A DNA stretch of 64,000 nt from Pseudobdellovibrionaceae bacterium (lineage in GTDB: Bacteria > Bdellovibrionota > Bdellovibrionia > Bdellovibrionales > Bdellovibrionaceae): contig JAOASS010000001.1 in assembly GCA_030158485.1 (NCBI GenBank), positions 22,408 through 86,407 of the forward strand, read 5' to 3'. Under the pieces are notes generated by a model. The model had not been told where the DNA came from. It saw only the letters and a list, made by a program, of their open reading frames with translations, and made no database searches. Positions 18,702-21,377 of the stretch are shown one piece after another (positions within the stretch are counted from its first letter, which is position 1; the number at the start of each line of letters is the position of its first letter). The position numbers and the translations under genes are program-made.

Positions 18702-20821
<2,120 letters not shown>

Positions 20822-20890
20822 ATTTTTTAAAAGTACCCCACTACTTACCGAGTCTTCAACTGAAGGGCAATACTTCATCATTTTGAGAAT

Positions 20891-20922
20891 AAAAAAAGCC
20901 GAGCTGGGATCGCCAGCCCGGC
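20891..20922 (-). terminator. rho-independent terminator of the non-coding RNA
   Basis: In the minus strand GCCGGGCTGG and CCAGCTCGGC form a ten-pair stem (one G-U) with a 5-base loop, followed by seven Ts (20897-20891). It ends the upstream RNA just before queA. Confidence 0.9.
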
Positions 20923-21134
20923 GGGGACCTCAAGCACAAGGGAACCACCAAACCTTGTGCTCGTGGCCAAATAACTTAAAACACATGAACTCTCGATCTC
21001 GCTACCATCTCAGCAGGGGGACCACTGAGCTTGTACATCTCCCTATTTGAGCGCCGAATCCGTGGCGCGAGGAACAAAAGTGAAAAGCCATCCTAGCTCA
21101 TTCATTTTGTTCCTTTGAGCCATCCGTGGCTCCC
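20891..21134 (-). ncRNA. structured non-coding RNA of unknown family, ~244 nt
   Basis: The only long stretch without an open protein gene. On the minus strand it contains five perfect stems: 21117-21132 (GAGCCA/TGGCTC, loop CGGA), 21070-21114 (10 bp AGGAACAAAA/TTTTGTTCCT enclosing a smaller hairpin), 21051-21068 (GCGCC/GGCGC, loop ACGGAUUC), 21009-21029 (CTCAG/CTGAG), and 20933-20961 (9 bp AGCACAAGG/CCTTGTGCT), and then a strong terminator. GGA motifs occur in the loops of the first three, as in CsrA/RsmA-sequestering RNAs. A possible -10 is TAATCT at 21137-21142. Some wording recalls 6S RNA (GGTCCCC and the 3' hairpin). Neither identity is proved; transcription and boundaries are inferred. 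Confidence 0.6.
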
Positions 21135-21223
21135 ATAGATTAAGACCAGTTACTTTCAGCCAGGGGTTAAATTTGATCTTAAATTTTTGATATGCCGCTT
21201 ATTAAGGCTATAACGAGAACTTA

Positions 21224-21293: not shown

Positions 21294-21377
21294 GCGCGGG
21301 TGGTGTAATGGTAGCCACGTATGTTTGAGGTGCATATGCCGAAAGGTGTGGGGGTTCAAGTCCCCCCTCGCGCACCA
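21294..21377 (+). tRNA. tRNA-Leu (anticodon GAG)
   Basis: 84-nt type II tRNA. Acceptor GCGCGGG pairs with CTCGCGC (one G-U), anticodon loop is TTGAGGT (anticodon GAG, 3-5 of the loop) on the stem TATGT/GCATA, variable arm TGCCGAAAGGTGT, T-arm GGGGG/CCCCC with TTCAAGT loop, and CCA is encoded. The D-arm and anticodon arm align well with E. coli tRNA-Leu(GAG). Confidence 0.95.

Follow-up and report, generated by a model that had tools for sequence, protein, structure and literature searches.

A conserved small RNA with GGA hairpins beside queA in Bdellovibrionaceae and its possible role in binding and titrating CsrA

Organization of the Locus

In the window (the whole stretch of 64,000 nucleotides that was analyzed), a unit of 240–250 nt was found on the minus strand, flanked by queA and a divergent tRNA-Leu(gag) gene (Table 1). 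All stems that an earlier note on this DNA had described were found in place on that strand, but the unit begins further upstream than the note claimed, since a conserved promoter-like pair, TTAACC/GTCTTA, precedes it. Folding of the whole stretch of the unit gave -102.7 kcal/mol compared to -85.0 ± 5.4 kcal/mol for shuffled sequences (z = -3.3; 0/200 shuffles).

Table 1. Features of the RNA locus and its neighbors (positions in the window).
Feature	Position	Strand	Remarks
tRNA-Leu(gag)	21294..21377	+	Divergent neighbor, likewise in many other genera
-35-like box	21165..21170	-	TTAACC; conserved spacing to GTC
-10-like box	21141..21146	-	GTCTTA; AAC...GTC layout, ECF-like rather than sigma-70
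Predicted transcript	about 20888..21136	-	Start inferred, end at terminator; based on promoter boxes, terminator and conservation
H1	21117..21132	-	GAGCC-ACGGAT-GGCTC; CsrA-site-like, loop ACGGAT
H2	21070..21114	-	Long arm, CsrA-site-like end loop TAGGATG; inner hairpin GAGCTAGGATGGCTT at 21099-21085
H3	21051..21068	-	GCGCC-ACGGATTC-GGCGC; CsrA-site-like, loop ACGGATTC
Usual place of ORF	20976..21038	-	20-codon frame without transmembrane stretch in the window; compared with same-genus G001
3′ hairpin	20932..20962	-	Family-wide loop TTTGGTGGTTCCC; covarying stem in alignment of 32 homologues; covariance model R1
Intrinsic terminator hairpin	20898..20922	-	T-run 20897-20888; stem covaries
queA	19814..20881	-	Downstream neighbor; PF02547, E = 1.7e-84

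Among the 50 homologues with a parsable promoter, the spacing from TTAACC to GTC was 18 nt in 46 and 19 nt in 4, and the first ANGGA was mostly found 17 nt downstream of GTC. The box pair occurs only three times in the whole window genome, and a search for a sigma-70 promoter across the stretch gave none. The RNA probably has a promoter of its own, with boxes that suggest an alternative-sigma class. GacA/UvrY sites (TGTAAG-N6-CTTACA) showed 23 near matches in the window vs. 26 expected by chance, and the only one close to the RNA had three mismatches.

One of the three box pairs (L131, G000:C15:107574-107604) is located upstream of a DksA/TraR-like gene. In G139 (L165), TTAACC-N18/19-GTC was also found upstream of a DksA/TraR-like gene, with a leader containing GGA hairpins. 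An alternative sigma factor, possibly of the ECF type, perhaps controls the loci with TTAACC-N18/19-GTC as one regulon.

Distribution among Relatives

A plain nucleotide search reached one same-genus genome only, and the same kind of search of phage sequences gave no match. As the plain search fell short, synteny, then a motif and then covariance models were used. Synteny with queA and tRNA-Leu within the family revealed a matching architecture in seven other genomes, and the 3′-hairpin motif GGTTT-N0-2-GGTGGTTCCC was detected in 49/66 family genomes, about once per genome. Inspection showed the RNA unit to be present at nearly all motif sites; four sites (L041, L053, L058, and L082) had no surrounding RNA and were dropped.

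R1, a covariance model built from the 3′ end, detected the RNA in 54/66 genomes of the window's family and in 0/303 other genomes of the phylum (E = 1e-4). When weak R1 matches were read individually, G010 was added, while those in G029 and G033 (E of about 1e-3) were rejected as coding sequence or chance terminators. R2, built independently from the 5′ end (promoter, H1, and H2), landed on the same places as R1 and further yielded G021, G140, and a second copy in G054. The G140 match (L162) belongs to another family and is a distant homologue adjoining queA (E = 7e-4). It contains GGA hairpins and an ORF of 47 aa that includes a hydrophobic stretch, and suggests that the locus is older than Bdellovibrionaceae.

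Pseudobdellovibrio and Bdellovibrio MAGs are among the genomes carrying the RNA. We infer that G051 is B. bacteriovorus HD100; its c-di-GMP-I riboswitch falls within the published coordinates of merRNA (PMC3627812). The HD100 copy of the RNA is located at about 2,159,866-2,160,190 (+) and is absent from the eight attack-phase sRNAs of Table 2 in PMC3627812, a table that does not cover growth-phase sRNAs. The HD100 RNA, if expressed, would thus be either not strongly attack-phase specific or not called.

GGA Hairpins

The five GGA motifs listed in the earlier note all exist, and the first three are indeed found in loops (H1–H3). The other two lie outside loops: the fourth, AAGGAACA (21115-21108), is part of the H2 stem, and the fifth, AGGGAGA (GGA at 21042-21040), is outside every conserved hairpin. 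A CTCAGTGG..CTGAG stem (21029-21009) was no better than shuffles and was not conserved.

Compensatory changes among homologues were found in the stems of H1, H2, the 3′ hairpin and the terminator. In loop-anchored alignments the H1 and H2 stems varied on both sides with pairing maintained, and covariation was 0.509 vs. 0.141 in shuffled alignments for H1 and 0.495 vs. 0.224 for H2 (0/500 shuffles reached the score in either case), compared to at most 0.206 for slid registers. Because the anchored windows were picked by ANGGA or AGGATG, GGA is necessarily invariant in them, but this choice does not account for stem covariation. Independently of this choice, GGA was counted 118 times in hairpin loops of 46 non-redundant RNAs vs. 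46 times in dinucleotide shuffles (approximately 2.5-fold), and it ranked second of 64 trinucleotides in loops, behind the overlapping GAT. Many relatives have a third GGA hairpin equivalent to H3 with a different stem, and GGA is missing from H1 in a few lineages (G009, G020, and G008). Several loop GGA motifs backed by covariation, as in RNAs of the CsrB/RsmZ type, were thus found.

The main loop sequences across homologues were TAGGATG, CAAGGAAG, CATGGATG, CACGGAAG, and CACGGATG, and the loops follow (C)ANGGA(N)G, the CsrA/RsmE consensus. These main sequences agree with both the CANGGANG hexaloop and the SELEX consensus RUACARGGAUGU, by which CsrA sites have been described (PMC4894983, PMC7652899). 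In the window genome, a CsrA gene (PF02599, 91 bits) adjoins a FliW gene (PF02623, 125 bits), and the gene before this pair looks flagellar hook-associated by inspection. CsrA was found in 132/141 genomes of the order; being nearly universal, it failed as a discriminating profile, and its co-occurrence with the RNA is not specific. The suggestion of the earlier note that the RNA is of the CsrA type is well supported by the covarying stems around a conserved GGA, the loop consensus and csrA in the genome, but three and not five GGA lie in conserved loops. From their sequence and pairing, the hairpins very probably bind CsrA.

Membrane-Peptide ORF

An ORF of 28–60 aa was found in 42/57 homologues, with the motif FCxxYSGVVxxSLW inside one hydrophobic stretch. 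With pN/pS of 0.43 in frame vs. 0.96 and 1.54 in shifted frames, the ORF is under purifying selection, and in 16 of the ORF-bearing homologues the Shine-Dalgarno GGA lies in a potential hairpin loop. Pfam and NCBIfam gave no convincing family for the peptide. The HD100 peptide (G051, L124:3974-4096; MTDLQDVAMFCLFYSGVVMYALWITVARSPARVEARKRRY) is a conserved membrane peptide of 40 aa.

The ORF is absent in 15/57 sequences, including the window, where the 20-codon frame is probably an ORF remnant, and genera g4, g5, g8, g9, g12, and g15. All 15 ORF-less sequences contain the 3′ loop, and under a strict rule one or more GGA hairpins remain in 14/15. In G054, two loci 7.5 kb apart (L160 and L038) were found: the copy that adjoins tRNA-Leu(gag) bears the ORF but not the 3′ loop, and the other has the 3′ loop but no ORF. 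Because G054 splits the two jobs and ORF-less copies keep the features of the RNA, these sequences favor an RNA function that is independent of the peptide. The earlier note had called the RNA non-coding, which agrees with the lack of a peptide-family ORF in the window, but not with its presence in most homologues; the idea of an RNA that is non-coding and only sequesters CsrA can hold at best in the window genome and in the lineages that likewise lack the ORF.

The frequency of the ORF, its constraint in frame, the Shine-Dalgarno GGA in hairpin loops and the G054 copy with an ORF next to tRNA-Leu would also fit an RNA that is primarily a CsrA-repressed mRNA leader acting only in cis on a small single-pass membrane peptide, with the window copy as a leader whose ORF has decayed. 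This explanation is rather unlikely, since at least seven genera with an ORF-less copy retain the promoter, GGA hairpins, 3′ loop and terminator, and covarying stems together with a near-invariant loop are not expected of a dead leader.

3′ Hairpin

The loop TTTGGTGGTTCCC (20954-20940 in the window) was near-invariant family-wide and is conserved more strongly than any other part of the RNA. Its motif also served as a search handle, so that the invariance is partly due to selection of the sequences, but R1 and R2 matches with the loop variants TTAGGTGGTTCCC and TTGGGTGGTTCCC showed that the loop drifts little. Neither a pairing partner nor a binding protein of TTTGGTGGTTCCC was evident.

Such conservation, which outlasts loss of the ORF and in G054 is found on a separate ORF-less copy, might point to an RNA that acts chiefly by base pairing with UUUGGUGGUUCCC in the 3′ loop as seed, the CsrA hairpins serving stability or chaperoning, as is the case for SR1 and CsrA in Bacillus. 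We consider this improbable, as an exact-pattern search for targets of the loop found none that was conserved (approximately one match per genome, mostly the RNA itself), and as base pairing would not account for why the GGA loops are constrained.

Known RNA Families

No Rfam family matched the RNA locus at gathering score and none was convincing up to E = 10, including the CsrB, CsrC, RsmX, RsmY, and RsmZ models, which gave no match up to that value. That the RNA is 6S RNA, which the earlier note had kept as an alternative from the wording GGTCCCC, or another known housekeeping RNA is extremely improbable, as Rfam is blank here, RF00013 gave no score at the locus, and a genuine 6S RNA of 73.8 bits is located on another contig (G000:C23:36721-36895). 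In open PMC papers, neither this RNA nor any CsrA-antagonizing RNA was found to be described for Bdellovibrionota. The conserved small RNA of Bdellovibrionaceae is a new RNA family outside Rfam.

Proposed Function and Comparison to Known Systems

The reading that we prefer, with a probability of roughly 0.6 as judged from sequence, is that of a CsrA-binding and CsrA-titrating RNA that in most relatives doubles as a CsrA-repressed mRNA. The RNA would be driven by a promoter of its own next to tRNA-Leu(gag), probably of the alternative-sigma kind, and its 5′ end would display two to three hairpin loops of the form (C)ANGGANG, two of which would be spanned by one CsrA dimer. In the window genome and in ORF-less lineages, the RNA itself would be the product, drawing CsrA off mRNAs. 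In most relatives, the same leader would govern the small membrane peptide, and in a good part of these the Shine-Dalgarno GGA would be a further hairpin-loop CsrA site, so that CsrA would be absorbed by the leader and would at the same time repress the peptide. Repression of the peptide by CsrA in ORF-bearing relatives, argued by analogy, seems reasonably probable, and titration of CsrA in trans as the main job of the RNA is somewhat favored, with the reservation that two to three sites per molecule are far below those of CsrB and that titration would need abundance. Further points against the preferred reading are the non-specific co-occurrence with CsrA, the lineages without GGA in H1, the absence of the HD100 copy from the attack-phase sRNA table, and the GGA hairpin leaders of ordinary genes in the order.

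A wider proposal, in which a dual-function RNA family special to predatory Bdellovibrionaceae unites a CsrA sponge, a CsrA-gated membrane peptide and an antisense loop and acts with FliW to set free CsrA at the switch between the attack stage of swimming cells and the growth stage within prey, is speculative and doubtful.

To our knowledge, CsrA-sequestering RNAs have been described for Gammaproteobacteria, which are without fliW. Like CsrB/CsrC and RsmX/Y/Z of that class, the RNA shows GGA in short hairpin loops, a cluster of hairpins, a strong terminator and csrA in the genome. It differs from them in having only two to three sites, no sequence homology and no GacA-type TGTAAG-N6-CTTACA above chance, in occurring together with FliW, in often bearing an ORF and in its own conserved 3′ loop. 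McaS of E. coli is a small RNA that interacts with CsrA. SR1 of B. subtilis, another CsrA-interacting small RNA, also encodes a small protein (PMC8501984). The RNA described here resembles McaS and SR1 in its few GGA sites and a possible second function, but is unrelated to them in sequence or lineage.

The C. jejuni flaA mRNA leader is both repressed by CsrA and titrates CsrA (PMC4894983), which is why peptide repression and titration are proposed together here. This leader, from a FliW-bearing species, also has two ANGGA hexaloops with compensatory changes, one of them over the ribosome site. In contrast, its ORF encodes flagellin, whereas the present RNA contains an ORF for a small membrane peptide or none, and has its own terminator and 3′ loop.

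The joint action of FliW and sRNAs on CsrA is still to be determined in any species (reviewed in PMC7652899). The present RNA is probably a sink for CsrA in bacteria for which FliW, a protein, had been the sole expected antagonist. Its presence in csrA-bearing genomes, including the tractable B. bacteriovorus HD100, opens the joint action of FliW and sRNAs to direct tests. A lineage whose life-cycle switch is little understood also gains an RNA family beyond Rfam and a conserved micropeptide.

GGA Hairpin Leaders Elsewhere in the Order

GGA hairpin leaders were also found upstream of ordinary genes in the order, which agrees with regulation in cis as well. In another family of the order, L163 (G033:C14, about 91735-92000) is a leader with serial GGA hairpins (CCCAAGGATGGG, GGTTTTCAAGGATTGAAAACC, and others) followed by a short ORF, and is another candidate for a CsrA-bound transcript.
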